A DNA stretch of 64,000 nt from contig JAJEPU010000015.1 in the NCBI GenBank assembly GCA_020686985.1, positions 1 through 64,000 of the forward strand, read 5' to 3'. Shown in pieces: positions 3,028-15,012 of this stretch. Below the pieces are notes generated by a model. The model searched no databases, had not been told where the DNA came from, and saw only the letters and a program-made list of their open reading frames with translations. Position 1 is the first letter of the stretch. Each line of letters begins with the position of its first letter. A program made the translations under genes and the position numbers. Source of the DNA: Brotaphodocola catenula. GTDB lineage: Bacteria > Bacillota > Clostridia > Lachnospirales > Lachnospiraceae.

Positions 3028-3738
3028 TTACAGCTTTGTGTATCCGTAGCTGTTTACGATTGCATCCAGCTTTACGCCTGCCTGACACTGCGGGCAGTTG
3101 TGCGGATCGGACAGCTTGAAGTCCGGGATATCGCTCATATCGAAGACTGCATTTACCGGATAACCTTCGATCTCAGATACAGCACCGAAGATAACGGAGA
3201 TACCCTCCATGATTCCGCCGTAAGACTCGATGCAACGGATGCTCTTCATGATCGTATGACCAGACATTGCACTTGCAAGAACAACCAGAACGTGCTTGTC
3301 CTTCAGCATCGGAACGATGTTCTCACGGACAACCATCTGACCGGTGGAATCGAACTCCGGAGTGATGATGTAGCTGGTCTTGTGCATGTTGGTGGTGTTG
3401 AATCCCATCTCGGAGAGCTGCTGTGCAACGTAAGCGCCGATTACCTCACATCCGTCCATGCAGATGATCGTATCGATCGTCTTCTTTGTAGCGAAAGCCT
3501 TCGAGTACTGAAGAACCTCATCACTGATTCCGAAAGACTTGGAAAGACCAACACGGTTTACATACTTCTTGACCATTGCCTTTGCAACAGCCTCTGCCTC
3601 AGACTGACGCATCTTCAGAGAAGACATATCAATATAATAATTGATATGGAAACGGTCGGAAGAAAAATGACCTTTTGTCACACGCAGAGCAACCTTCGGG
3701 TTGTCCTTTGCCTGAATTTTAGTAGCTTGTCCCATCAT
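3028..3738 (-). CDS. Phosphoribosyltransferase-fold protein, orotate PRTase-like
   Basis: This 236-residue protein resembles the orotate phosphoribosyltransferase-like proteins of Clostridia. The PRPP-loop region appears as KHVLVVLASAMSGHTIMKS, where a beta strand leads into a loop with a Ser-Gly turn, but the usual two acidic residues before the loop are not clear. The C-terminus carries CPQC, a possible metal or redox pair. The start at 3738 has gaggagg nine bases upstream; an adjacent second ATG is less well spaced. Its promoter holds a TAAC-N4-GTTA site at -41.5 like the one before the SLC13 transporter gene, so it is probably co-regulated with the sulfur locus. No other pyrimidine gene is nearby, so a true orotate role is uncertain. 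Confidence 0.7.
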   Translation of the reverse strand: MMGQATKIQAKDNPKVALRVTKGHFSSDRFHINYYIDMSSLKMRQSEAEAVAKAMVKKYVNRVGLSKSFGISDEVLQYSKAFATKKTIDTIICMDGCEVIGAYVAQQLSEMGFNTTNMHKTSYIITPEFDSTGQMVVRENIVPMLKDKHVLVVLASAMSGHTIMKSIRCIESYGGIMEGISVIFGAVSEIEGYPVNAVFDMSDIPDFKLSDPHNCPQCQAGVKLDAIVNSYGYTKL

Positions 3739-3790
3739 AAGAAAGATCCTCCTCTAAAATGATTAATGTAATCCTACCCATTTAAATCAG

Positions 3791-3831
3791 ATTATAGTAC
3801 AAAATGATAAAAAAATCCATAACGATTGTTA
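3791..3831 (-). promoter_or_regulatory. Promoter with Crp/Fnr-type operator for the PRTase-like gene
   Basis: On the minus strand a TATAAT -10 box lies at 3796-3791. The palindrome taacgattgtta lies at 3820-3831. If transcription starts seven bases past the -10 box, the palindrome centre is at -41.5, the standard class II activator position. No good -35 box is present, as expected for an activated promoter. Confidence 0.55.
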
Positions 3832-3836
3832 AGTTT

Positions 3837-4505
3837 TTAATAATTTAGACAAAGCTCCCCATTTCCATAGACAATTTGGCGCAGTGCTTCCACATTTTCA
3901 ATCAGAATCCCGTTGCTGTTCTTGGACAGATAACCGCGCTGTTTCATCTTTGCCATGATGCGCGATACCGTCACCGGGTGCGTTCCGAGATAGCGCGCCA
4001 GCTCCGCATAGGTAAAGAATTTCGGAACGGTCAGGATGCCATCCTTCTCCTTTGCGACGTTGAGAAGCAGACGGCTTAAGCCCGTTACAGCCGACTCGTC
4101 GAGTCTCTGATGAAAATGAACAAGAACTTCATAATAATTGTCAGAGAGTGTCTGAATCAGAAAGGTGTTGAATGCGGGATTGTGTTGCATCAGATCCTGA
4201 AAGGCAGAGAAGCTGATGCGGTAAAGTGTACATTTTGTCTTTGTAATAATCGAAAACTCAACGGGATGAGAAGTTCCGTGAGTCATTAAGAGCTGATTGA
4301 ATCCGACAATGCGAGGAGGGTAGAAGTACAGGTAAACGGTCTCTTCCCCGTTGCTTGTCACGCCTGTCAGTGCACAGATTCCGTCTTCAAGTAAATAACA
4401 GCAGTCAGCCCCAGGTGAATCCATGCTGATATTTAAACAGACCTGCTTGTCAAGATGGATTTTGGTTCCTCTTGAGCGGAGCAGTTTTCTGAAATTTTCT
4501 TTCAT
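3837..4505 (-). CDS. Crp/Fnr family transcriptional regulator
   Basis: The 222-residue protein has a cyclic-nucleotide-binding-like beta barrel at residues 10-120, a dimer helix around 125-150 and a winged helix at 155-215. The recognition segment reads TYAELARYLGTHPVTVSR, the classic Crp/Fnr pattern. Several cysteines (23, 35, 36, 43) sit in the sensor domain, but they do not match a known iron-sulfur pattern, so the signal is unknown. The gene is divergent from the SLC13 transporter and precedes the PRTase-like gene on the same strand. TAAC-N4-GTTA palindromes at -41.5 of both flanking promoters make it the likely activator of the locus. Another palindrome overlaps its own promoter and may give autoregulation. 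Confidence 0.92.
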   Translation of the reverse strand: MKENFRKLLRSRGTKIHLDKQVCLNISMDSPGADCCYLLEDGICALTGVTSNGEETVYLYFYPPRIVGFNQLLMTHGTSHPVEFSIITKTKCTLYRISFSAFQDLMQHNPAFNTFLIQTLSDNYYEVLVHFHQRLDESAVTGLSRLLLNVAKEKDGILTVPKFFTYAELARYLGTHPVTVSRIMAKMKQRGYLSKNSNGILIENVEALRQIVYGNGELCLNY

Positions 4506-4535
4506 AGTTCTTATACCTCCAAACTAATTGTAACA

Positions 4536-4555
4536 TAGTTTTAAAAATAAAACTA
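4536..4555. promoter_or_regulatory. Perfect palindrome upstream of the Crp/Fnr-type gene
   Basis: The sequence tagtttta-aaaa-taaaacta is a perfect 8-base inverted repeat with a 4-base spacer. It lies 30-50 bases before the regulator start and would overlap its promoter. It differs from the TAAC-N4-GTTA sites, so it could be an autoregulatory site or a chance AT-rich palindrome. Confidence 0.35.
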
Positions 4556-4573
4556 CTGAAAAATATTATCAGA

Positions 4574-4616
4574 TATAACGTGTGTTATAGCTTTAACAAG
4601 AAAAAAATGGTAGTAT
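4574..4616 (+). promoter_or_regulatory. Promoter with Crp/Fnr-type operator for the SLC13 transporter
   Basis: The palindrome tataacgtgtgttata at 4574-4589 is a perfect 6-base inverted repeat with a 4-base spacer and a TAAC-N4-GTTA core. A -10-like tagtat lies at 4611-4616. Counting from the implied start near 4623, the palindrome centre is at -41.5, matching the PRTase-like promoter. The transcript would have a leader of about 85 bases with gtaggagggg just before the ATG. Confidence 0.6.
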
Positions 4617-4707
4617 TAGCTAAAAGTGAGGGTCGCATTTTATAGGAGTTGTTGCGTTTTGCCTCATGTGTTAATTAATTAACAAAAGTGTAGGAGGGGT
4701 TTGACAC

Positions 4708-6177
4708 ATGGCAAATTCAAAAAACAAAGACACGATGACGATTGTTCACTCCATAATTGGAGTTGCAATCATGGTGCTTTTCCGGTATTTACCGCTTAAT
4801 CTGCCGGAGATTACACCAGTTGGTATGCAGGTTGTAGGCATTTTCCTTGGAACCTTGTATCTGTGGACATTTGTAGATCCACTCTGGAGCAGTTTGTTTG
4901 CGATTGCGATGGTCGGTTTTTCTGACTATGCACCGATGAATGCAGTGCTTCAGTCCGCATTCGGATCTCCGGTTGCCCGTCAGAGTTTCTTCCTGATGGT
5001 AGCAGCAGGAGCACTTGTTTACTACAAAGTAACTCTTTACATCGGACGTTTCTTCCTGACAAGAAAGTTTGCAAACGGTAAGCCATGGATGATGGCATTC
5101 GTCATCTGCATCGGTTCTTATCTGATTGCAGGATTCATCAACTGCTTCACCGCAATCTTCCTGTTCTGGCCGGTTCTGTACGATATCTTTGATGAGATCG
5201 GTTATAAGAAAGGCGATGCATTCCCGAGAGTTATGCTGACACTCGTAATCACTTCTGCACTCGTTGGTTTCCCGATGGCACCGTACATGCAGAATGGTCT
5301 TGCTCTGTTAGCAAACTTCCAGAGTATCACAGAGAGCATGCCGGGTGGTCCGATTTCTGTAAACAACGCTTCTTACCTGATCGTTGCAATCGTTCTTGGA
5401 ATCACGATTATCACCGCAACCGTTCTCTATGCGAAATTTGTGATTCGTCCGGATGCATCGAAGTTAAAAGATTACGATGTAGAAGAGCTGAACAAGCATC
5501 CGCTTCCGCCGATGGATCTGCGTCAGAAAGTTCTGTCCACAGCATTCGTTCTTCTCGTTCTTGGTATGATGCTTCCGTCCCTGCTTCCGTCTCTGCCGGG
5601 CATGAAGTTTTTGTCCAGCAACAGCTACGGACTTGCGCTCTTTGTTGTAGCAGTTCTGGCAGCAATCCGTATTGACGGCAAGGCAGCAGTAGAGATCCCG
5701 AAGGTACTTGCAGGCAACTTAAACTGGGGTGCATACTTCATCATCGTTGCAGCAATCATGCTTGGTAACGTTCTGACGAACGAGTCCACCGGTGTCAGCG
5801 CATTTTTAAGCTATGTGCTCTCCCCGATCTTCAACGGAATGTCTTCAACCGTATTTACAATCCTGATCCTTTTGGTTGCAGGAGTTCTGACAAACCTGTG
5901 TAACAGCCTTGTAATCGGTATGATCCTTCAGCCGGTTCTCGTAACCTACTGTGCACAGTCCGGAGCAGATCCGAGACCGATCGTAACCCTGCTGATTCTG
6001 TTCGTATTGATGTCCGCAGCAGTTACTCCGGCAGCATCTCCGTTTGCAGCAATCCTGCACAGTAACAAGGAATGGATTGAGACGAAGTATGTATATCAGT
6101 ACACTCTGCCGATCGTTCTGATCGAGTTCATCCTTGTGATGGTCGTTGGTGTTCCGTTAGCAAGCATGCTGATGTAA
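4708..6177 (+). CDS. SLC13/DASS-type anion transporter
   Basis: This 489-residue integral membrane protein has about twelve hydrophobic segments, in the size range of divalent anion:sodium symporters. The first segment follows a short polar N-terminus. A polar loop near residues 245-275 divides two halves, as in the SLC13/ArsB/NhaD superfamily. Hallmark-like serine-asparagine and proline loops occur, for example NESTG near 353-357 and TPAASPFAAILHS near 436-448. It is divergent from the Crp/Fnr gene and carries its putative operator. It is the only transporter in the sulfur locus, so it may bring in a sulfate ester, sulfonate or dicarboxylate. Substrate cannot be read from sequence. Confidence 0.8.
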   Translation: MANSKNKDTMTIVHSIIGVAIMVLFRYLPLNLPEITPVGMQVVGIFLGTLYLWTFVDPLWSSLFAIAMVGFSDYAPMNAVLQSAFGSPVARQSFFLMVAAGALVYYKVTLYIGRFFLTRKFANGKPWMMAFVICIGSYLIAGFINCFTAIFLFWPVLYDIFDEIGYKKGDAFPRVMLTLVITSALVGFPMAPYMQNGLALLANFQSITESMPGGPISVNNASYLIVAIVLGITIITATVLYAKFVIRPDASKLKDYDVEELNKHPLPPMDLRQKVLSTAFVLLVLGMMLPSLLPSLPGMKFLSSNSYGLALFVVAVLAAIRIDGKAAVEIPKVLAGNLNWGAYFIIVAAIMLGNVLTNESTGVSAFLSYVLSPIFNGMSSTVFTILILLVAGVLTNLCNSLVIGMILQPVLVTYCAQSGADPRPIVTLLILFVLMSAAVTPAASPFAAILHSNKEWIETKYVYQYTLPIVLIEFILVMVVGVPLASMLM

Positions 6178-6499
6178 TTCCACTGCCAAGCGGGAGGCGA
6201 TACCGCAAAGCAGAGACATGACACAGGATATGTATGATACAGAATATACAGAATGTAATGTGTGAAAACGTGTAGATATGTGTAGATAAAAACGATGGCA
6301 AAGACGCAGAGACAACAACTCCAAAACGTGACACTCATCTGTCTGTGAAAATCATAAAACATTGGAATGACAGGGGATAGGTAATAGGTATAAGTAATTT
6401 AAAGAGTTGAGAGATTTTATTCTAATTGCTTTGTAAGATAAGAATTGGAATTATCAGAATTAGTAAGAATGAACAGAAGTTAGTTAAGGAGAAGGAATT
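6178..6499. other. Spacer between SLC13 transporter gene and trxB
   Basis: This spacer of 322 bases has no strong terminator and no credible gene. Imperfect tandem repeats occur near 6231-6292: atacagaat is followed by atacagaat, and gtgtagatat by gtgtagataa. The last 80 bases are AT-rich and may hold a promoter for trxB, but I see no clean boxes. The ribosome site aaggagaagg precedes the trxB ATG. Confidence 0.4.
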
Positions 6500-7426
6500 A
6501 TGACACAGTATGATGTGATTATCGTGGGAGCAGGTCCTGCTGGAATGACTGCTGCAATCTATGCAGCGAGAGCAGACATGACCGTGCTTCTGCTTGACAA
6601 GCTGGCACCGGGTGGTCAGATTATCAATACAAATGAGATTCAGAACTATCCGGGAACCGGTTTTATTAACGGAGCAGAGCTGGCATACAAGATGTTTGAG
6701 CAGACTCAGGAGTTCCCGTCAATCACTTTCGATTATGCGACTGTCAAGGAAATTCAGAACGACGGCGCAGAGAAGAAGGTAATCTGCGAGGAGGACGGCA
6801 AAGAATTCACCGGAAGCACGATCATTCTTGCAACCGGAACACGTCCGAGATGTCTCCATGTCCAGGGGGAGGACAATTTCCGCGGAAATGGCATCAGCTG
6901 GTGCGCAATCTGTGATGGCGCTCAGTACCGCGATCGCGACGTTGTTGTAATTGGTGGTGGAAACTCCGCAGTTGAGGAGTCGATCTTCCTTGCAGGTATC
7001 GTAAAGAGCCTGACAATCGTGACGATGTTTGATCTGACCGCAGATCCGATCGCATGTGACAAGCTCCGTGCAATGGAAAATGTAAAGATTTATCCGTATC
7101 AGGATATTCTTGAGTTTACCGGAGATACGAAGCTGACCGGTGTTCATTTCAAGTCCACAAAGACCGGCGAGGAGAACACGGTTGCATGTGACGGTGTGTT
7201 TGAGTACATCGGTTTGACTCCGACGACAGAGTTTGCAAAGGATCTCGGTGTTCTGAACCAGATGGGTTATGTGACGGTTGATGATCGCATGCATACCCCG
7301 GTAGAGGGAATCTTCGGTGCAGGAGACTGCGTGACAAAGAACCTTCGTCAGGTAATCACAGCATGTTCGGACGGCGCAATTGCCGCACAGGAAGCTGCTC
7401 ACTATGTGCAGAACCTGAGAAAGTAA
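6500..7426 (+). CDS. trxB: Thioredoxin reductase (NADPH/FAD)
   Basis: The 308-residue flavoprotein carries the FAD-binding GAGPAGMTAA motif at residues 10-19, the redox-active CAIC pair (Cys135 and Cys138) followed by DG, and the NAD(P)H-binding VVIGGGNSAVEE. A C-terminal FAD motif GIFGAGDC is also present. It transfers electrons from NAD(P)H or ferredoxin to thioredoxin in the cytosol. It sits 66 bases before a thioredoxin gene and then two sulfotransferase genes, so this pair may be a dedicated thiol system for the sulfur locus rather than the housekeeping one. Start and length are normal. Confidence 0.95.
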   Translation: MTQYDVIIVGAGPAGMTAAIYAARADMTVLLLDKLAPGGQIINTNEIQNYPGTGFINGAELAYKMFEQTQEFPSITFDYATVKEIQNDGAEKKVICEEDGKEFTGSTIILATGTRPRCLHVQGEDNFRGNGISWCAICDGAQYRDRDVVVIGGGNSAVEESIFLAGIVKSLTIVTMFDLTADPIACDKLRAMENVKIYPYQDILEFTGDTKLTGVHFKSTKTGEENTVACDGVFEYIGLTPTTEFAKDLGVLNQMGYVTVDDRMHTPVEGIFGAGDCVTKNLRQVITACSDGAIAAQEAAHYVQNLRK

Positions 7427-7492
7427 TCGATCACACAGATCTGCAATCAAACAAACGAATAATAAGTACAACGAATACGGAGGAATTAACCA

Positions 7493-7804
7493 ATGATTAA
7501 AGAAGTAAACAGCGCAGAATTCAAAGAGTTAGCAGGACAGGGTCTGGTACTGGCAGATTTCTTTTCTACTACCTGCGGACCGTGCAAGATGCTCTCTTTC
7601 GTACTGAAGGATGTTGAGAAGGAGTTTGGCGATGATCTGACCATCCTGAAAGTGGATTTTGACCAAAACAAGGATCTGACTGCTGAGTATGGGGTAACCG
7701 GCTATCCGACTCTCGTTCTGTTAAAAGATGGCGCAGAGGTTGGACGTTTACAGGGTCTTCAGCAGAAGCCGGTTATCATCAAGCTCGTGAAGGATCATCA
7801 GTAA
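7493..7804 (+). CDS. trxA: Thioredoxin
   Basis: This 103-residue protein has the thioredoxin fold with CGPC at residues 28-31, the buried Asp22 in ADFF, and the cis-proline segment GYPTLVL. The usual Trp before CGPC is replaced: the active site reads STTCGPC instead of WCGPC, which suggests a specialised partner. The ribosome site ggaggaatt precedes the ATG. Placed after trxB and before the sulfotransferases, it could reduce a protein S-sulfocysteine or accept a sulfo group and release sulfite. That role is inferred; the thioredoxin identity is secure. Confidence 0.95.
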   Translation: MIKEVNSAEFKELAGQGLVLADFFSTTCGPCKMLSFVLKDVEKEFGDDLTILKVDFDQNKDLTAEYGVTGYPTLVLLKDGAEVGRLQGLQQKPVIIKLVKDHQ

Positions 7805-7839
7805 TCAGCAAGTAATTTGTAGTTATTGTAATCTGAATG

Positions 7840-7863
7840 GATTATAAAACAGATTATAAAACA
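7840..7863 (+). repeat. Perfect 12-base tandem repeat before the first sulfotransferase
   Basis: The unit gattataaaaca occurs twice in direct succession. It lies 80-103 bases before the sulfotransferase start, in a spacer without a visible terminator. It may be a regulator site pair or a slippage product. Confidence 0.6.
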
Positions 7864-7942
7864 TAAAAAAGCAAAAAACAAAACAGAAAGAAGGGGCAGA
7901 TGCTAAGGGGTTATGGATCTGTCCCGACAGGAGGAGGAACTT

Positions 7943-9814
7943 ATGTCAGTAAATTATTCCTTTCAGGATCACCTGATCAATCGCCAGGCAGAGGCAGAGG
8001 CACAGATGCTTAAGAGATTTGAGGAGGGCAATTATACAATCGCCAATCCGCTCGTTGTCTACAACGCTTACCTCGTAAACCCGCTTTCCGCAGTCATCTG
8101 CTTTGAGACTGAGGAGGAGACCGCAGTGACTCTGACCGTTCTCGGAAAGACGGTACAGGGAAACATCAGCCACACCTTCCCGAAGGCAAAGAAGCATGTG
8201 CTTCCGGTTGTTGGTCTGTATTCTGAGTATCAGAACAAGGTTGAGATCCGTGCATACCGCGGAGAGACGAACGTTGTCACGATTGATGTTCCAGATGTAT
8301 TTGACGGCAAGAAAGTTATTTTTTCGATGGATACGACTCCAGAGTATTTACAGGACAACATCATTCTGGTATCTCCGGCAGGTGAGGATCTGGCAGTTGG
8401 TTTTGACTATGCAGGCGATGCAAGATGGCATATGAATCTTCCGTGCGTATTCGACGTAAAGAGACTGAAAAATGGCAATCTGATCATGGGTACGAACCGC
8501 GTTATTCAGATGCCGTACTACATGTCCGGTCTGTACGAGATCAGCCCGTGTGGTAAGATCTACAAGGAGTTCCGTCTGCCGGGCGGCTATCATCACGATG
8601 AGTTCGAGATGGAAGATGGCAACCTCTTAGTTCTGACCGATGATCTGAGAAGAAACACTGTTGAGGATATGTGCGTTCTCGTAGATCGCAACACCGGTGC
8701 AATCTTAAAGACCTGGGATTACAAGAAGTTCCTGAATCCGGAGACCGTGAGCCATTCCGGAAGCTGGTCTGATCATGACTGGTTCCACAACAACGCTGTT
8801 TGGTATGACAAGAATACGAACTCCCTGACCTTCTCCGGTCGTCATGTTGACGCAATGGTCAACATCGACTTTGAGACCGGCGATTTGAACTGGATCATCG
8901 GTGATCCAGCAGGCTGGCCGCAGGAGATGGTGGACAAGTACTTCTTCAAGCCGATCGGCAACAATTTCGAGTGGCAGTATGAACAGCACGCTAACGTGAT
9001 TACTCCGAACGGCGATGTGATGTGCTTCGATAACCATCACTATGGTCACAAGGCAGTTGAGAGAGAGCAGTTCCTGAGTGCAGACAACAGCTACTCCAGA
9101 GGTGTTCGTTATCGCATCAACACGAAGGATATGACGATCGAGCAGGTATGGCAGTACGGTAAGGATCGCGGAGCAGAGTTCTTCTCACCGTACATCTGTA
9201 ACGTAGAGTACTACAACGAGGGACACTACATGGTTCATTCCGGTGGTATCGCTTACGATAAGGATGGCAACCCGTCTGAGGCACTCGGCGCATTCGCTTC
9301 GAGCCAGGGCGGACATCTTGAGTCGATCACCGTTGAGATCTGCGATAACAAGAAGATGCTTGAGCTCCATGTTCCGGGCAACTATTACCGCGGTGAGAAG
9401 CTGAAACTTTACAGCGATGGCATTAATCTTGAGCTTGGCAAGGGTCAGATCCTCGGTCAGATGGGTGTTACCCTTGAGATGGATACTGAAGTTCCGGCAG
9501 ACAGCCAGGGTGCAATGCTTCCGGAGTCCTGCAGCGCAAGAGTAGAAGACGAGATCGATCGTTTCACCTTCTTCTCCCGTTTCGAGAAGGGACAGCTCGT
9601 TATCCTTCAGCTTGAGAAGGGCGAGGAGATCCATCGTTACTTCATCTCCACAACCGCAGTTCCGTTCCTTGCAATGTGCTGTGGAACCTTCCTTGATTCC
9701 GATGATCGTAACACGAGAACGAACATCAACAAGGCAGGCTTAGAGGGCGATTACGATCTGCGCGTCATCATCGACGATCAGAAGTATGAGACCGGCATCA
9801 AGATTCATTGCTAA
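7943..9814 (+). CDS. Arylsulfate sulfotransferase (ASST family), paralog 1
   Basis: The start at 7943 is chosen because gaggagg lies just upstream with the same spacing as in the next paralog; it gives 623 residues. An N-terminal beta domain (about 1-125) precedes a beta-propeller catalytic domain. Candidate active-site histidines are in GGYHHDE (217-218), HDWFHNN (278, 282), EQHANV (349) and HSGGI (432). Enzymes of this family move sulfo groups from phenolic sulfates to other acceptors through a sulfo-histidine, without PAPS. There is no signal peptide, so it is cytosolic, unlike E. coli-type periplasmic ASST. The arginine found in FDNGHWR of paralog 2 is absent here (FDNHHYGHK). The last residue is cysteine. 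Substrate and acceptor are unknown. Confidence 0.88.
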   Translation: MSVNYSFQDHLINRQAEAEAQMLKRFEEGNYTIANPLVVYNAYLVNPLSAVICFETEEETAVTLTVLGKTVQGNISHTFPKAKKHVLPVVGLYSEYQNKVEIRAYRGETNVVTIDVPDVFDGKKVIFSMDTTPEYLQDNIILVSPAGEDLAVGFDYAGDARWHMNLPCVFDVKRLKNGNLIMGTNRVIQMPYYMSGLYEISPCGKIYKEFRLPGGYHHDEFEMEDGNLLVLTDDLRRNTVEDMCVLVDRNTGAILKTWDYKKFLNPETVSHSGSWSDHDWFHNNAVWYDKNTNSLTFSGRHVDAMVNIDFETGDLNWIIGDPAGWPQEMVDKYFFKPIGNNFEWQYEQHANVITPNGDVMCFDNHHYGHKAVEREQFLSADNSYSRGVRYRINTKDMTIEQVWQYGKDRGAEFFSPYICNVEYYNEGHYMVHSGGIAYDKDGNPSEALGAFASSQGGHLESITVEICDNKKMLELHVPGNYYRGEKLKLYSDGINLELGKGQILGQMGVTLEMDTEVPADSQGAMLPESCSARVEDEIDRFTFFSRFEKGQLVILQLEKGEEIHRYFISTTAVPFLAMCCGTFLDSDDRNTRTNINKAGLEGDYDLRVIIDDQKYETGIKIHC

Positions 9815-9867
9815 GATTCATAAGATTCAGGGGTTGAATTTAAGGAGAAGAAAGACCCAGATAGTCA

Positions 9868-9900
9868 GACTGTCAAGCCCGGGTGCAAAACCTGACAGTC
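9868..9900 (+). promoter_or_regulatory. Hairpin just upstream of paralog 2 ribosome site
   Basis: gactgtca at 9868-9875 pairs perfectly with tgacagtc at 9893-9900 across a loop of 17 bases. It lies four bases before the AGGAGG of the second sulfotransferase gene. There is no U-run, so it is not a terminator. It could stabilise a processed transcript or tune translation between the two paralogs. Confidence 0.55.
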
Positions 9901-9915
9901 ATATAGGAGGAACTT

Positions 9916-11796
9916 ATGGGAGTCGATTTTAGAAATGTAGAACATATCATCAAGCGTCAGTACAAGGCAGAGCAGGAGTTCTTAAACGAGTATGCACAGG
10001 AGAAGCACACGATTGCGAATCCGTATGTGAAGTTAAACCCGTATCTGATCGCTCCGCTGACTGCACTTGTGATGTTTGAGAACGAGAAGCCGGCATTTGC
10101 AAAGGTAACCGTAAAGGGAAAGGAGAGCGCAGGCGATATGATGTATCGTCCGGCATCCGATTCCAAGAAGATGGTAATTCCGGTGTACGGTCTGTATGCA
10201 GACTATGAGAATACCGTGATCATCGAGTTAAGCACCGGCGAGAAGGCAGAGATCAAGATTCAGACCGAGCCGGCACCGAAGAAAGTCTGGAAGCCGACCT
10301 ATATCAAGACAACGCCGGAGTACATGGAGGACAATGTGGTGTTCGTAAGCCCGACCTCCCCGGCATGCACCGCAGCTTATGACTATGCAGGAGATGCGCG
10401 TTGGTACAACACGCTAAACCTTGCATTTGACTTAAAGCGTGCAAAAAATGGTCGTCTCTTCGTTGGTACCGATCGCCTGGTTGCTCCGCCATACCACACG
10501 ACAGGTGTGTATGAGATGGGCATGATCGGTAAGATCTACAAAGAGTACCGTGTTCCGGGTGGTTATCACCATGACGAGTGGGAGATGGAGAACGGCGATC
10601 TGCTGATTCTGACTCAGGATCTTCCGCGCGGCACCGTTGAGGATGTCTGCGTTCTCGTAGACAGAAAGACGGGTGAGATCTTAAAGAAATGGGATCATCA
10701 GGACGTTCTTCCGGTATATCCGGTTGGCGGTTCCGGAAGCCAGGACGGTCACGACTGGTTCCATAACAATGCAGTTTGGTACGACAAGAAGACGAATTCT
10801 CTGACGTTCTCCGGTCGTCACCAGGATATCATCATCAACCGCGATTTTGAGACCGGAAAGCTCAACTGGATCATCGGTGATCCGACCGGCTGGCCGGAGG
10901 AGATGCAGAAGTACTTCTTCAAGCCGATCGGCGACGGAGACTTCGACTGGCAGTATGAACAGCATGCCTGCATGATTCTGCCAAACGGCGATGTGATGTG
11001 CTTCGATAACGGTCACTGGAGATCGAAAGAGAAGGAGAACTACCGCGCAGCGAAGGACAACTTCTCCCGCGGTGTCATCTACCACATCGATACTGAGAAT
11101 ATGACGATCGAGCAGGTATGGCAGTATGGTAAGGAGAGGGGCGCAGAGTTCTTCTCCACCTATATCTGCAACTGCGAGTACTATGAGCCGGGTCACTACA
11201 TGGTTCACTCCGGCGGTATCGGCAAGGAGAATGGCGAGTGGATGAACGTTCCGGGTGCTGCAAAGACGGAGGGCATCGACAATGGAACCGTAGAGCTCAG
11301 CTCGATCACTGTTGAGATCAAGGATGATGAGGTTATGTACGAGATGCATCTGCCGGCAAACTACTACCGCGCAGAGAAGCTCAAACTCTACGATGAGATG
11401 GATCAGGTTAGCTTTGGCGAGGGCGAGATCCTTGGTACTCTCGGTGTGACCGAGGAGTTCTTAACCGAAGCTCCGGCAGAGCCGTCCGGCATAATTCCGG
11501 ATCAGTACAAGACAAAGATCGCAAAGGAAGAGGATCGTCTTGTATTTAAGGCAAGTTTTGAGAAGGGCATGCTTGTTATGCTCAACCTTGAGGGCGAGAA
11601 TGGCGCTCCGAACCGTCATTACTTCGTTCCGACGACGAAGAGACCGTTCCTTGCAATGTGCGTAGGAACCTTCCTTGAGCATGATCCGAGAGCTGTTGAG
11701 GTTCCGATCAGCGCAGAGGGAATTGAGGGCACTTATAAGGTAACTGTCACCGTAGATGATAAAAAATATGATACAGGTGTAGAAATTACCTTTTAA
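9916..11796 (+). CDS. Arylsulfate sulfotransferase (ASST family), paralog 2
   Basis: This 626-residue protein aligns along its whole length with the preceding gene, including PEYxxDN, DYAGDARW, PGGYHHDE, HDWFHNNAVWYDK, LTFSGRH, NWIIGDP and YMVHSGGI. Candidate catalytic residues are His219, His279, His283, His350, Arg369 (in FDNGHWR) and His431. The spacing of His350 and Arg369 is close to the His/Arg pair of characterised ASSTs. No signal peptide is present. The copies arose by tandem duplication and have diverged around the FDN segment, which suggests different donors or acceptors. It is followed by asrABC after a structured leader, so released sulfite could pass straight to reduction. The enzymatic family is clear; the reaction in vivo is not. 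Confidence 0.88.
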   Translation: MGVDFRNVEHIIKRQYKAEQEFLNEYAQEKHTIANPYVKLNPYLIAPLTALVMFENEKPAFAKVTVKGKESAGDMMYRPASDSKKMVIPVYGLYADYENTVIIELSTGEKAEIKIQTEPAPKKVWKPTYIKTTPEYMEDNVVFVSPTSPACTAAYDYAGDARWYNTLNLAFDLKRAKNGRLFVGTDRLVAPPYHTTGVYEMGMIGKIYKEYRVPGGYHHDEWEMENGDLLILTQDLPRGTVEDVCVLVDRKTGEILKKWDHQDVLPVYPVGGSGSQDGHDWFHNNAVWYDKKTNSLTFSGRHQDIIINRDFETGKLNWIIGDPTGWPEEMQKYFFKPIGDGDFDWQYEQHACMILPNGDVMCFDNGHWRSKEKENYRAAKDNFSRGVIYHIDTENMTIEQVWQYGKERGAEFFSTYICNCEYYEPGHYMVHSGGIGKENGEWMNVPGAAKTEGIDNGTVELSSITVEIKDDEVMYEMHLPANYYRAEKLKLYDEMDQVSFGEGEILGTLGVTEEFLTEAPAEPSGIIPDQYKTKIAKEEDRLVFKASFEKGMLVMLNLEGENGAPNRHYFVPTTKRPFLAMCVGTFLEHDPRAVEVPISAEGIEGTYKVTVTVDDKKYDTGVEITF

Positions 11797-11802
11797 ATGT
11801 AG

Positions 11803-11933
11803 TATAATTATATAGCTAGCCAATATTGCGGAAAAGGTTTCTGCCTGTTCTCAGCAGGGCGAAATTGTGAGGCAGGCGGAAATCATATAAAGGCGCAAAC
11901 TCATGCGTTTCCGGTGGAAATCCGGGGATGCAT
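11803..11933 (+). promoter_or_regulatory. Structured 5' leader with promoter-like box before asrA
   Basis: A -10-like tataat lies at 11803-11808 just after the sulfotransferase stop. The following 130 bases fold strongly. tttctgcctg (11838-11847) pairs with caggcggaaa (11873-11882) with one G-U pair, and the inner tctca pairs with tgagg. A second hairpin joins atgc (11903-11906) with gcat (11930-11933) and ccgg with ccgg. The asrA ribosome site follows ten bases later. The compact two-stem form next to a ribosome site is riboswitch-like, but it matches no class I can recall. Confidence 0.5.
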
Positions 11934-11956
11934 AAAACAAAGGAGGAGTTGTTTTC

Positions 11957-12994
11957 ATGGGATACAAAGTGAGCTTTGAAGAAGCCAACAAGATCCTGGC
12001 AGAGCTTCAGAACGAGTATGAAATCTGGGCACCGAAGCGATTCGTAGGCAAGGGCAGATATTCTGACACCGATCTGGTAAAGTATGCTAAGATCAACACG
12101 ATTGAGGAAGTTGAGTACAAGAAGAAATCTGACTTCCCGGCAAAAGAGGTTCTGACCCCGATCACCGAGTCTCTGTTCTACTTCACTGAGGACGAGTTCA
12201 TCGAGAGCAAGGCAACCAATAAGAAACTGCTGATCTTCATGCGTCCGTGTGACATTCACGCACAGCATCATCAGGAGCGCATCTATTTAAGCAACGGTAA
12301 CTTCGAGGACATGTACTACAAGCGCATGAACGAGAAGGTTAAGATTGTCATGATGGAGTGTGCTGAGAGCTGGGATACCTGCTTCTGCGTAAGCATGGGA
12401 ACCAACAAGGCAGAGGACTACTCTCTGGCAGTTCGCTTCGGTGAGGATGGACTTCTGGTTGACGTGAAGGATCAGGATTTTGCAGGATGCTTCGAGAATG
12501 ACGAGAAAGCAGACTTTACGCCGGATTATGTAAAAGAGAATGTTCTGAAAGTAACCGTTCCGGAGATCCCGAACAAGGATGTCCTGACCAAGTTAAAACA
12601 GCATCCGATGTGGAACGAGTACAACAAGCGTTGTATCTCCTGCGGAGCTTGTACGATTGCATGTAGCACCTGTACCTGCTTTACCACAACGGATATCATC
12701 TACAACGAGAATGGTCGTGTCGGTGAGAGAAAGCGTACTTCCGCTTCCTGCCAGATCAAGGGCTTTACCGATATGGCTGGTGGCATGAGCTTCCGCAACA
12801 CTGCCGGTGATCGTATGCGTTATAAAGTACTCCACAAATTCCACGACTACAAGGCACGTTTCAAAGATTATGATATGTGCGTAGGTTGCGGTCGATGCAT
12901 GGAGCGTTGTCCGGAACTGATCTCCATCGTAGCAACTGTCAACAAGATGAGCAAGGCGATCGATGAGATCGTAGCTGAGTCTGACAAGGCGTGA
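11957..12994 (+). CDS. asrA: Anaerobic sulfite reductase subunit A (iron-sulfur)
   Basis: The 345-residue subunit carries two ferredoxin-like cysteine clusters in its C-terminal third: CISCGACTIACSTCTC near residues 224-239 and CVGCGRCMERCP near 312-323. The N-terminal 200 residues match the AsrA/HydB-type electron-transfer domain, including RPCDIHA. It passes electrons from AsrB to the sirohaem subunit AsrC in the cytosolic NADH-dependent sulfite reductase. The ribosome site aaaggagg precedes the ATG. It opens a tight asrABC operon behind a structured leader. Family length is normal. Confidence 0.96.
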   Translation: MGYKVSFEEANKILAELQNEYEIWAPKRFVGKGRYSDTDLVKYAKINTIEEVEYKKKSDFPAKEVLTPITESLFYFTEDEFIESKATNKKLLIFMRPCDIHAQHHQERIYLSNGNFEDMYYKRMNEKVKIVMMECAESWDTCFCVSMGTNKAEDYSLAVRFGEDGLLVDVKDQDFAGCFENDEKADFTPDYVKENVLKVTVPEIPNKDVLTKLKQHPMWNEYNKRCISCGACTIACSTCTCFTTTDIIYNENGRVGERKRTSASCQIKGFTDMAGGMSFRNTAGDRMRYKVLHKFHDYKARFKDYDMCVGCGRCMERCPELISIVATVNKMSKAIDEIVAESDKA

Positions 12995-13013
12995 GAGAGA
13001 GAGGTGGAGAAGA

Positions 13014-13805
13014 ATGAATAACATTATCAAGCCGGTAGCATGTGAAATCATCAGCATTAAGCGTGAGAGCGTTCATGAGTATACCTTCCGTGTTGCTACG
13101 GATATCAAACCAAATCCGGGACAGTTTTTACAGCTTTCCATCCCGAAGGTAGGTGAGGCTCCGATTTCTGTCAGCTCCTATGGTGAGGGCTGGATGGAGT
13201 TTACCATTCGTTCTGTAGGTAAAGTAACGGATGAAATTTTTGAGATGCAGCCAGGAGATCATCTGTTCCTGCGTGGACCGTACGGACACGGATGGCCGAT
13301 TGAGCAGTATAAGGGCAAGCATGTCGTAGTCATCACCGGTGGTACCGGTCTGGCTCCGGTAAAGAGCATGCTGAATATGTTTTATGAGAACCCGGATTAC
13401 GTGAAGAGCGTAACCTTAATCAGCGGATTTAAGAATGAGGAAGGCATCATCTTCAAAGAGGATCTTGAGAGATGGAAAGAGCGCTTCACGACTTACTACA
13501 CGCTGGATCGTGACCACAAGGATGGCTGGAACACCGGTTTCGTTACCGAGTTCGTTTCCAAGGTTCCGTTAAAGGAGTTTGGAGAGGATTACGAGATGGT
13601 AATCGTAGGACCGCCACCAATGATGAAGTTCACCGGTCTGGAGGCTGTAAAGTGTGGTGCTAAGGAAGAGAAGATCTGGGTATCCTTCGAGAGAAAGATG
13701 TCCTGCGCAGTAGGTAAGTGCGGACACTGCCGTATCGACGAAGTGTATGTCTGCCTGGATGGCCCGGTATTCAACTATACACAGGCTAAGAATCTGATTG
13801 ACTAA
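13014..13805 (+). CDS. asrB: Anaerobic sulfite reductase subunit B (FAD/NAD-binding)
   Basis: This 263-residue flavoprotein has the ferredoxin-NADP reductase fold. An N-terminal FAD barrel includes PGQFLQLSIP, the NAD-binding half contains VVVITGGTGLAP, and a C-terminal cysteine cluster CAVGKCGHCRI ligates an iron-sulfur centre. It draws electrons from NADH for sulfite reduction. It starts 19 bases after asrA with a ggtgga-type ribosome site and is 17 bases from asrC, so the three genes are translated together. Length and motifs are typical. Confidence 0.96.
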   Translation: MNNIIKPVACEIISIKRESVHEYTFRVATDIKPNPGQFLQLSIPKVGEAPISVSSYGEGWMEFTIRSVGKVTDEIFEMQPGDHLFLRGPYGHGWPIEQYKGKHVVVITGGTGLAPVKSMLNMFYENPDYVKSVTLISGFKNEEGIIFKEDLERWKERFTTYYTLDRDHKDGWNTGFVTEFVSKVPLKEFGEDYEMVIVGPPPMMKFTGLEAVKCGAKEEKIWVSFERKMSCAVGKCGHCRIDEVYVCLDGPVFNYTQAKNLID

Positions 13806-13822
13806 GGAAAGGGGCAAGGATT

Positions 13823-14914
13823 ATGAATCAGGATATTGATATTAAGAAAGTGCGTCTCAACTGTTTCCGTCAGTCTAAAGTACCGGGTGAGTTCATGCTT
13901 CAGCTGCGTGTTCCGGGTGCTGCTCTTGCTGCAAAGCATCTGACAATGGTACAGGAGATTTGTGAGAAATGGGGAAATGGAACCTTCCATTTCGGAACCA
14001 GACAGACCTTTGATATTCCGGGAATCAAGTACGAGAATATCGAGGCAGTAAACAAGTATATCAAGGGTTACATTCATGATATTGATGTGGAGAGCTGTGG
14101 CGTAGACATGAATACGATCGCTGGTCAGCCGGCTGAGTATGATGTTGAGAGCGGTTATCCGACCATCGGTGCAAGAAACATCATGGCATGTGTTGGTAAT
14201 GCACACTGCATCAAGGGTAATGCAAACACCGCAGAGCTGGCAAGAAAGATCGAGAAGCTGATCTTCCCGTCTCACTACCACATCAAAGTTGCAGTTGCAG
14301 GATGCCCGAACGACTGTGTAAAGGCAAACTTCAACGATTTCGGTATCATGGGTATCAACAAGCAGATCTACGACATCGATCGTTGTATCGGCTGCGGCGC
14401 TTGTGTAGAGGCTTGTCAGCATCATGCAACCGGCGTTCTGAGCCTGAACAAGAACGGCAAGATCGACAAGGACACATGCTGTTGCGTAGGTTGTGGTGAG
14501 TGTTCTATCGCCTGCCCGACTGGAGCTTGGAGCAGAGGACCGCACCTGTACCGCGTTACCCTTGGTGGACGTACCGGTAAGCAGAACCCGCGTTCCGGTA
14601 AGCTGTTCTTAAACTGGGTAACTGAGGATGTTATCCTTGGCATGTTCGCAAACTGGCAGAAATTCTCTGCATGGGCTCTGGATTACAAGCCGGAGTACCT
14701 GCATGGTGGTCACCTGATTGACCGTGTCGGCTACAAGGAGTTCGTAAAGCACATCTTCGAGGGTGTTACCTTCAATCCAGAAGCAAAGATGGCAGACGAT
14801 ATCTACTGGGCAGAGAACGAGCAGCGTGGAAATATGCACGTTATGCCGCTGTCTCAGCATAAGCATGCTGGCCCGGCAGAGACTGCAAATTACAGCTTTG
14901 CTCAGCAGAAGTAA
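13823..14914 (+). CDS. asrC: Anaerobic sulfite reductase subunit C (sirohaem)
   Basis: The 363-residue catalytic subunit reduces sulfite to sulfide. The sirohaem-[4Fe-4S] binding cysteines are seen in CVGNAHC and GCPNDC, the C-X5-C and C-X3-C pairs of sulfite reductases. Between and after them lie two ferredoxin clusters, CIGCGACVEACQ and CCVGCGECSIACP. The protein ends just before a strong terminator, closing the sulfur locus. With AsrA and AsrB it forms a cytosolic NADH:sulfite reductase that lets anaerobes use sulfite as an electron sink. Codon choice here is highly biased, as in the sulfotransferase genes, which suggests high expression. Confidence 0.97.
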   Translation: MNQDIDIKKVRLNCFRQSKVPGEFMLQLRVPGAALAAKHLTMVQEICEKWGNGTFHFGTRQTFDIPGIKYENIEAVNKYIKGYIHDIDVESCGVDMNTIAGQPAEYDVESGYPTIGARNIMACVGNAHCIKGNANTAELARKIEKLIFPSHYHIKVAVAGCPNDCVKANFNDFGIMGINKQIYDIDRCIGCGACVEACQHHATGVLSLNKNGKIDKDTCCCVGCGECSIACPTGAWSRGPHLYRVTLGGRTGKQNPRSGKLFLNWVTEDVILGMFANWQKFSAWALDYKPEYLHGGHLIDRVGYKEFVKHIFEGVTFNPEAKMADDIYWAENEQRGNMHVMPLSQHKHAGPAETANYSFAQQK

Positions 14915-14973
14915 GCAAATCGATTATTTGACAAGATGGTCAGATTTTCGTGAAACATAAGAGAATTTAAAGA

Positions 14974-15012
14974 AGAGGGGCAGAATCGCAGAAAGGTTCT
15001 GCTCCTTTTTCT
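14974..15012 (+). terminator. Rho-independent terminator of the sulfur locus
   Basis: ggggcagaa at 14977-14985 pairs with ttctgctcc at 14997-15005 (one G-T pair), followed by a run of five T. It ends the asrABC transcript before the pgi promoter. Confidence 0.9.

Follow-up and report, generated by a model that had tools for sequence, protein, structure and literature searches.

What would a pair of cytosolic arylsulfate sulfotransferases (ASSTs) do between a thioredoxin system and a sulfite reductase? The question is raised by a locus of Brotaphodocola catenula (Lachnospiraceae) that occupies positions 3,028–14,914 of the 64,000-nucleotide stretch of contig JAJEPU010000015.1 analysed here (hereafter, the window). 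It encodes a CRP/FNR-family regulator, an anion permease, thioredoxin reductase (TrxB), thioredoxin (TrxA), two ASSTs (ASST1 and ASST2) and the three subunits of the sulfite reductase AsrABC. Profile searches recovered all of these genes in the order given by a preliminary description of the locus, with one correction: the first gene, which had been taken for the regulator, encodes a phosphoribosyltransferase (PRT)-like protein, and the regulator comes second (Table 1). We propose that the operon probably reduces sulfate esters without sulfate activation, in that the sulfo group would pass from ASST to a thiol, be released as sulfite by means of TrxA and TrxB, and be reduced to sulfide by AsrABC. 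This pathway is well supported by genomic context and chemically unproven.

According to passages of a July 2026 review (PMC13426309), the natural acceptors of most bacterial arylsulfate sulfotransferases (ASTs) have not been identified and the roles of these enzymes are poorly understood; catalysis is described there as a reaction of the ester with a histidine of the ASST, yielding His-SO3 and the phenol. The passages searched contain no test of a thiol as acceptor, and the term thiol has no matches in those of PMC11576661 and PMC11468790. Passages of another paper describe the ASST neighbourhoods of Sutterella as typically lacking recognisable operons, and note an asst operon with disulfide-forming genes (PMC10932419). 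No description of an ASST–thioredoxin–sulfite route was found in the open-access PMC literature (subscription papers and preprints lay outside the search), in agreement with the preliminary description, whose author knew of no such pathway with this gene set.

Both window ASSTs score above the curated PF05935 cut-off of 24.2 bits. Passages of the review name His436, His252, His356, Asn358, Arg374 and Thr501 as the active-site residues of E. coli ASST (PMC13426309). When ASST1 is aligned with the latter protein (3elq), H359 takes the place of the catalytic His436, and His356, Asn358 and Arg374 correspond to H292, N294 and R310, respectively; His252 matches H228 in a weakly aligned stretch, and Thr501 is the exception, its position being occupied by Ile. 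All 86 Trx-linked ASSTs, defined as those with TrxA or TrxB encoded nearby, carry H359, H227/H228, H292, N294 and R310 (the two window proteins were labelled as linked by hand). Leaderless or secreted-looking status was assigned by eye from the N-termini, and no hydrophobic leader was seen in ASST1 or ASST2. The Cys-bearing loop that precedes His436 in the E. coli protein is also absent from the window ASSTs in the 3elq alignments. With both loop and leader absent, a function of the thioredoxin in making the E. coli-type ASST disulfide was rejected. One cysteine in the C-terminal region, C589, is invariant in all 128 aligned long leaderless ASSTs, Trx-linked and unlinked, and missing from 8 of 8 secreted-looking ones. 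An ASST cysteine may carry the sulfo group as an intermediate, and C589 is a candidate for it.

The association of ASST with thioredoxin genes is conserved. PF05935 is present in 15 of the 24 genomes of the genus set and in one of 37 other relatives, and TrxB, TrxA and ASST stand together in all 15 ASST-bearing genus genomes (in G008 the contig ends within TrxB). Outside the genus, a scan of named genomes, limited to the best 80 of 511 relatives and yielding 79 loci, revealed Trx-linked leaderless ASSTs in Lachnospiraceae records (Hungatella effluvii, Diplocloster agilis and a metagenome-assembled genome labelled Enterocloster bolteae), in Erysipelotrichaceae, Coprobacillaceae, Oscillospiraceae, Anaerococcus, Hutsoniella and Desulfosporosinus, and in Olsenella (Actinomycetota). 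They are further found in Thermodesulfobacteriota (Desulfofustis, Desulfobulbus and Desulfovibrio). With linkage defined by the presence of both genes, TrxA and TrxB, on the ASST strand at a distance of no more than 3.6 kb, the linked fraction of ASST1/2-type genes is 66 of 96 for the named loci, 18 of 38 for the genus set, 2 of 2 for the class of the window (Clostridia) and 16 of 18 for the Desulfofustis class; these sets overlap and some loci reach contig edges. A tree built on 61 non-redundant ASSTs contains 53 leaderless proteins, of which 38 are linked, and 8 secreted-looking ones, of which none is. Two gene orders predominate in it, TrxB-TrxA-ASST (29) and ASST-TrxB-TrxA (6); the rest are three single variants, of which the one in L132 (L and G numbers denote loci and genomes) relies on a weak, distant TrxA-like match. 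TrxA-ASST-TrxB is among the orders of the tree. One protein counted as unlinked in the tree (L135, Desulfosporosinus lacus) adjoins a TrxA3/TrxB3 pair. Fetched stretches around nine secreted- or lipoprotein-like ASSTs (two in L051 and seven in L146–L152) gave no Trx match in any case, the N-terminus of the L149 protein not being a clear signal. Of the matches examined for an ASST–Trx fusion, one long frame (G500:C154, 866 aa) runs into the adjacent DASS frame and was rejected as a likely too-early start. As a separate observation, the frame at 7071–12065 of L146 (G177) encodes 1,664 aa with a leader-like start and contains two ASST matches in one protein.

The thioredoxin and its reductase are themselves distinctive. 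TrxA is a member of the thioredoxin superfamily by its PF00085 profile and CGPC motif, and falls below the equivalog cut-off for canonical thioredoxin (TIGR01068; 86.8 versus 96.8 bits), having TCGPC, not WCGPC. TrxB possesses a CAIC site and also scores below the cut-off for thioredoxin-disulfide reductase (TIGR01292; 324.4 versus 343.45 bits). Scores slightly under the equivalog thresholds fit divergent subfamilies. Linked TrxAs nearly always display [FY]SxTCGPCK[MI]L and G[YF]PT, with single departures to VCGPC (L122), KCGPC (L139) and AYPT or SYPT (L104, L120); the 16 other TrxAs compared from the same genomes have WCGPC (once WCSPC) and mostly SIPT. In a tree built from the best 30 of 46 matches, the linked TrxAs, which come from 14 genomes, group in a single clade (support 100/99), recovered at 98/99 in a tree with 19 rows. 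The linked TrxBs likewise form one clade (100/100; best 30 of 44 matches), and a seeming exception, L224 from Hungatella effluvii, was rejected since it adjoins another ASST.

A codon pattern for TCGPCKM was matched in 14 of the 61 relatives, every time at an ASST operon, the 15th ASST-bearing genus genome (G005) having TCGPCKI instead. Among 391 genomes of Clostridia the pattern was found in three (G000, G199 and G422). PF05935 is present in 31 of these 391 genomes and, among 20 stretches inspected, leaderless ASSTs of ∼630 aa were confined to the same three; the other matches, inspected in part, were secreted-looking, of a shorter type (ASST3, see below) or weaker. The Desulfofustis class served as an independent replicate: 17 of its 257 genomes contain an ASST scoring at least 339 bits, and in 17 of 17 the pattern lies near the ASST. 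Ten further genomes of this class carry the pattern away from ASST, in a TrxC-like clade with N-terminal CxxC pairs, so that full exclusivity of the signature to ASST is rejected (10 of 27 positive genomes). Reversed-pattern controls gave no match in the genomes listed. The linked TrxA and TrxB clades therefore track long leaderless ASSTs across phyla.

A second thioredoxin lineage, marked by CHVC and GVPQ and accompanied by a TrxB of its own, was observed beside a distant ASST family of ∼480 aa (ASST3) in three of three genus loci (G000, G011 and G018). In L064 (7785–11048; G000:C46), L062 and L063, ASST3 proteins of 474–485 aa are encoded next to TrxB (387–397 aa) and the CHVC thioredoxin, and L062 additionally contains a DASS-like permease and a second ASST3 copy.

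How firmly is AsrABC tied to this association? G000, G007, G011 and G018 have the whole block up to AsrABC uninterrupted, whereas in G013 ASST2-AsrABC forms a separate unit. AsrC scores above cut-off in 16 of the 24 genus genomes, namely all 15 with ASST and one of the nine without (G003); the co-occurrence is significant by Fisher's test (p = 1.2e-5), uncorrected for kinship. AsrA or AsrC lies within 3.6 kb of ASST1/2-type genes on the same strand in 19 of 96 cases in the named loci, 7 of 38 in the genus, 0 of 2 in Clostridia and 1 of 18 in the Desulfofustis class, some of these matches being weak. Conversely, 11 AsrABC loci situated away from ASST (L241–L251, from genomes lacking the contiguous block) showed no Trx or ASST match; neighbours are listed for four of them, and in three (L242, L244 and L245) these look like tetrapyrrole genes by eye. 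Several contiguous clusters include a porphobilinogen deaminase/methylase/HemD gene near AsrABC (assigned by clustering, with one example profiled), which matches the need of a siroheme enzyme. The conserved core is thus ASST, TrxA and TrxB, and AsrABC is a lineage-specific addition. A lack of conserved adjacency in related genomes, which the preliminary description had named as grounds for refutation, was not encountered: the adjacency extends far beyond the genus for ASST with TrxA and TrxB; for AsrABC it is seen only in some lineages.

A possible regulatory link is provided by the palindrome upstream of the permease gene, which is a candidate site for a CRP-type regulator. Its core, ATAAC-N4-GTTAT, is present exactly in 29 of 292 loci (loci overlap), two of the 29 (L147 and L249) being away from these genes. 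Exact copies stand upstream of DASS homologues in 17 of 42 rows, and 30 of 42 have the core when one mismatch is allowed, the rows being related and not independent; the baseline in random windows (n = 3000) is 0.5% and 2.3%, respectively. An exact copy precedes the split ASST2-AsrABC unit of G013 by 116 bases. Among 24 stretches upstream of AsrA, none contains an exact core and one (L251) has it with one mismatch. Adjacency kept across phyla and the recurrence of a CRP-type palindrome before related operons argue that the grouping of these genes exceeds chance.

The families of the sulfate-to-sulfite route were searched for as well. ATP sulfurylase (PF01747) had no match in any of the 25 genomes searched (control genomes, 5 of 14), and PF01507, which we take to cover CysD and CysH, had none in the genome of the window (3.32 Mb, 98.8% complete; control genomes, 14 of 14). 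There is therefore no sign of the known sulfate-to-sulfite route; sulfonate sources were outside the search. In L106 (12073–13083), L107 and L117 (11984–12985) a YeiH-type protein is encoded after ASST, with AsrABC absent from the fetched stretch; the L106 and L117 proteins score above the PF03601 cut-off and below that of TIGR00698 ('putative sulfate export'), and the one in L107 was assigned by clustering with both. In L143 a TauE/SafE protein (PF01925; 8274–9005) accompanies ASST and AsrA/AsrB-like proteins below cut-off. Such putative exporters near ASST fit a sulfur oxyanion as product.

Taken together, these data suggest the following sequence of events. The permease would import an aryl (or similar) sulfate, and cytosolic ASST would release the phenol by transferring the sulfo group to its catalytic histidine. 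Host phenol or steroid sulfates, suggested in the preliminary description, might be the donors. We infer that a thiol is the acceptor and sulfite the product: the sulfo group could pass directly to a cysteine of the dedicated TrxA, or move first to a cysteine of ASST, which TrxA would attack in turn. Sulfite would be displaced by a second thiol, which leaves TrxA oxidised, TrxB would re-reduce TrxA with NAD(P)H, and AsrABC would reduce sulfite to sulfide. The physiological purpose might be an electron sink or sulfur supply. The succession from ASST through thiol and thioredoxin to sulfite and AsrABC had been put forward in the preliminary description. That proposal is partly supported: it gains from the conserved pairing of dedicated TrxA/TrxB with ASST and from the missing sulfate-to-sulfite families; AsrABC falls outside the conserved core, and the acceptor thiol and sulfite release keep their conditional standing.

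Several observations weigh against this pathway. AsrABC adjacency is confined to some lineages, the core occurring elsewhere without it. The 128 distinct long leaderless ASSTs divide into 86 with TrxA or TrxB encoded close by, 32 whose complete flanks contain neither, and 10 too close to a contig edge; among the 32 is the L135 protein, which adjoins a pair from the other Trx lineage, and many unlinked ASSTs are second copies in genomes that also hold a linked one. Among the loci kept from the named-genome scan, the ASSTs of Hungatella hathewayi and Niameybacter massiliensis have no linked Trx. Outside the genus, most ASST3-type genes lack a link, although their products look leaderless too (in Clostridia two of seven fetched are partially linked, L160 by TrxB and L156 by a weak TrxA match, and none of five close ones in the Desulfofustis class is), which limits the weight of the CHVC–ASST3 association. 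As for the enzyme itself, C589 is equally invariant in Trx-unlinked ASSTs, and two cysteines close to the active site, C371 and C429, occur in most but not all proteins (82/86 and 80/86), which rules out a strictly conserved cysteine relay at either position. Finally, passages of the review mention older work on Eubacterium A-44 that put forward a tyrosine intermediate (PMC13426309).

The alternatives differ in what they leave unexplained. ASST might do no more in the cytosol than transfer sulfo groups among phenols or other hydroxyls, with TrxA and TrxB keeping its cysteines reduced and AsrABC handling unrelated sulfite. Cluster II ASTs are known to catalyse such transfer in vitro, and passages of the review list phenols, alcohols and sugars as their acceptors (PMC13426309), and a cysteine to be kept reduced is at hand in C589, conserved in the leaderless ASSTs and absent from the secreted-looking ones. 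We nevertheless consider this explanation unlikely. A general thioredoxin should suffice for such a task, so that a dedicated, divergent, ASST-tied clade would be unnecessary, and C589 does not distinguish linked from unlinked proteins; the distribution of AsrC within the genus (15/15 versus 1/9, kinship uncorrected) and the operator shared by the split ASST2-AsrABC unit would both be left unexplained. It is very improbable that TrxA and TrxB serve sulfite stress, repairing S-sulfonated proteins when sulfite arrives from outside: AsrABC and, in a few other loci, YeiH- or TauE-type putative exporters are indeed neighbours, but the Trx link follows ASST and not AsrABC, persisting in many loci without AsrABC and missing from the 11 AsrABC loci that lie apart from ASST. 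Synteny due to chance or inheritance, with no function behind it, has hardly any credibility; although many loci come from related genomes, the association recurs in several gene orders and phyla, a second Trx lineage accompanies ASST, and the signature was followed genome-wide in two classes.

A further alternative retains the chemistry of the ASST–thioredoxin–sulfite pathway and is compatible with its mechanism, changing only the purpose: aryl sulfates would supply sulfide for cysteine synthesis and not an electron sink. We regard it as a real possibility, if short of an even chance. With neither PF01747 nor PF01507 matched in the genome, there is no sign of the known sulfate-assimilation pathway. 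On the other hand, AsrABC is of the NADH-linked dissimilatory type, and the ASST–Trx core is also found in lineages of Thermodesulfobacteriota that are sulfate reducers and should therefore not depend on a further source of sulfur (the search did not extend to the sulfite reductases of these lineages).

In broader terms, we lean slightly towards the view that a dedicated thioredoxin serves cytosolic bacterial ASSTs as their natural acceptor, and that sulfite would thereby be formed without ATP, adenosine 5'-phosphosulfate (APS), 3'-phosphoadenosine 5'-phosphosulfate (PAPS) or a sulfatase, so that sulfate esters could act as electron acceptors for gut fermenters equipped with AsrABC and for sulfate-reducer lineages that supply a sulfite reductase of their own. 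Comparative genomics thus names one candidate AST acceptor, which can be tested with three purified proteins. According to passages of PMC9016944, asr genes are twice as abundant as dsr genes in gut genomes. If the proposal is true, there would be a source of sulfide that escapes surveys aimed at sulfate reduction, at sulfatases or at the use of taurine; sulfate conjugates, phenol release and H2S would be linked in the gut, and sulfate reducers would gain an acceptor that bypasses ATP-consuming activation.

Table 1. Features of the ASST–thioredoxin–AsrABC locus (window positions; strand; supporting matches).
Feature	Position	Strand	Basis
PRT-like protein (236 aa), conserved neighbour	3028..3738	-	weak TIGR01367 match, E 6e-5
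CRP/FNR-family regulator, divergent orientation	3837..4505	-	PF13545 4e-14, PF00027 2e-9
Candidate CRP-type operator TATAAC-N4-GTTATA	4574..4589	.	palindrome core recurrent before related operons
CitMHS-clan / DASS-like anion permease	4708..6177	+	PF03600 1.5e-9
TrxB, thioredoxin reductase of ASST-linked clade, CAIC site	6500..7426	+	PF07992 2.6e-47; TIGR01292 324.4 bits
TrxA, dedicated thioredoxin (FSTTCGPCKML, TGYPT)	7493..7804	+	PF00085 3e-23
ASST1, leaderless arylsulfate sulfotransferase	7913..9814	+	PF05935 344 bits; PF17425; H359 = E. coli His436
ASST2, leaderless arylsulfate sulfotransferase	9916..11796	+	PF05935 351 bits; 3elq alignment
AsrA	11957..12994	+	TIGR02910 444 bits, cut-off 323
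AsrB	13014..13805	+	TIGR02911 349 bits, cut-off 289
AsrC, sulfite reductase catalytic subunit	13823..14914	+	TIGR02912 372 bits, cut-off 324; CVGNAHC + CPNDC
Terminator-like hairpin 3' of asrC	14972..15010	+	16-pair stem, T-rich tail

The plus-strand genes from permease to AsrC are separated by 322, 66, 108, 101, 160, 19 and 17 bases. Terminator-like sites occur across the region at chance frequency, and the hairpin after asrC is supported by its position alone. All three Asr subunits exceed their NCBIfam equivalog cut-offs, and AsrC carries Cx5C (CVGNAHC) and Cx3C (CPNDC) motifs, presumably the siroheme/4Fe-4S ligand cysteines. The permease homologue of Hungatella effluvii matches TIGR00785 (dass) below cut-off, and CRP/FNR regulator homologues are divergent from DASS/ASST genes in other loci as well. 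Homologues of the PRT-like protein in ASST clusters are 46–83% identical to it; GHF, SDRFH, CMDGCE-like and CxxC residues are invariant across the clusters, and its gene is located immediately downstream of ASST in L083, L090 and L103.

The proposed system combines elements of several known ones. With AssT of E. coli CFT073 it shares the PF05935 family and, in ASST1, the active-site residues His436, His356, Asn358 and Arg374. The E. coli enzyme differs in being periplasmic, with a Cys loop and an oxidising Dsb pair (its neighbours are, we assume, DsbL/DsbI), whereas the window ASSTs are leaderless and loopless and have TrxA and TrxB as partners. In logic, the closest parallel is CysH with thioredoxin and sulfite reductase. 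CysH moves the sulfo group of PAPS to a thiol and thioredoxin then releases sulfite, as thiol attack on S-sulfo thiols does in general; in both systems the sulfo group would thus go to a thiol, thioredoxin would free sulfite and a siroheme enzyme would reduce it. CysH depends on nucleotide-activated sulfate, whereas the system of the window would use an ester donor and ASST. The cluster II PAPS-independent ASTs of D. hafniense, Desulfosporosinus and Hungatella effluvii are also leaderless and come from the same kinds of organisms; the Desulfosporosinus and H. effluvii loci described above, which may or may not encode the published proteins, have linked Trx genes. Cluster II enzymes appear in passages of the review as in vitro sulfation catalysts (PMC13426309). 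The three subunits of the anaerobic sulfite reductase AsrABC are all represented in the window above equivalog cut-offs, and what sets this copy apart from the known system is that, instead of standing alone, it sits behind ASST and thioredoxin genes.

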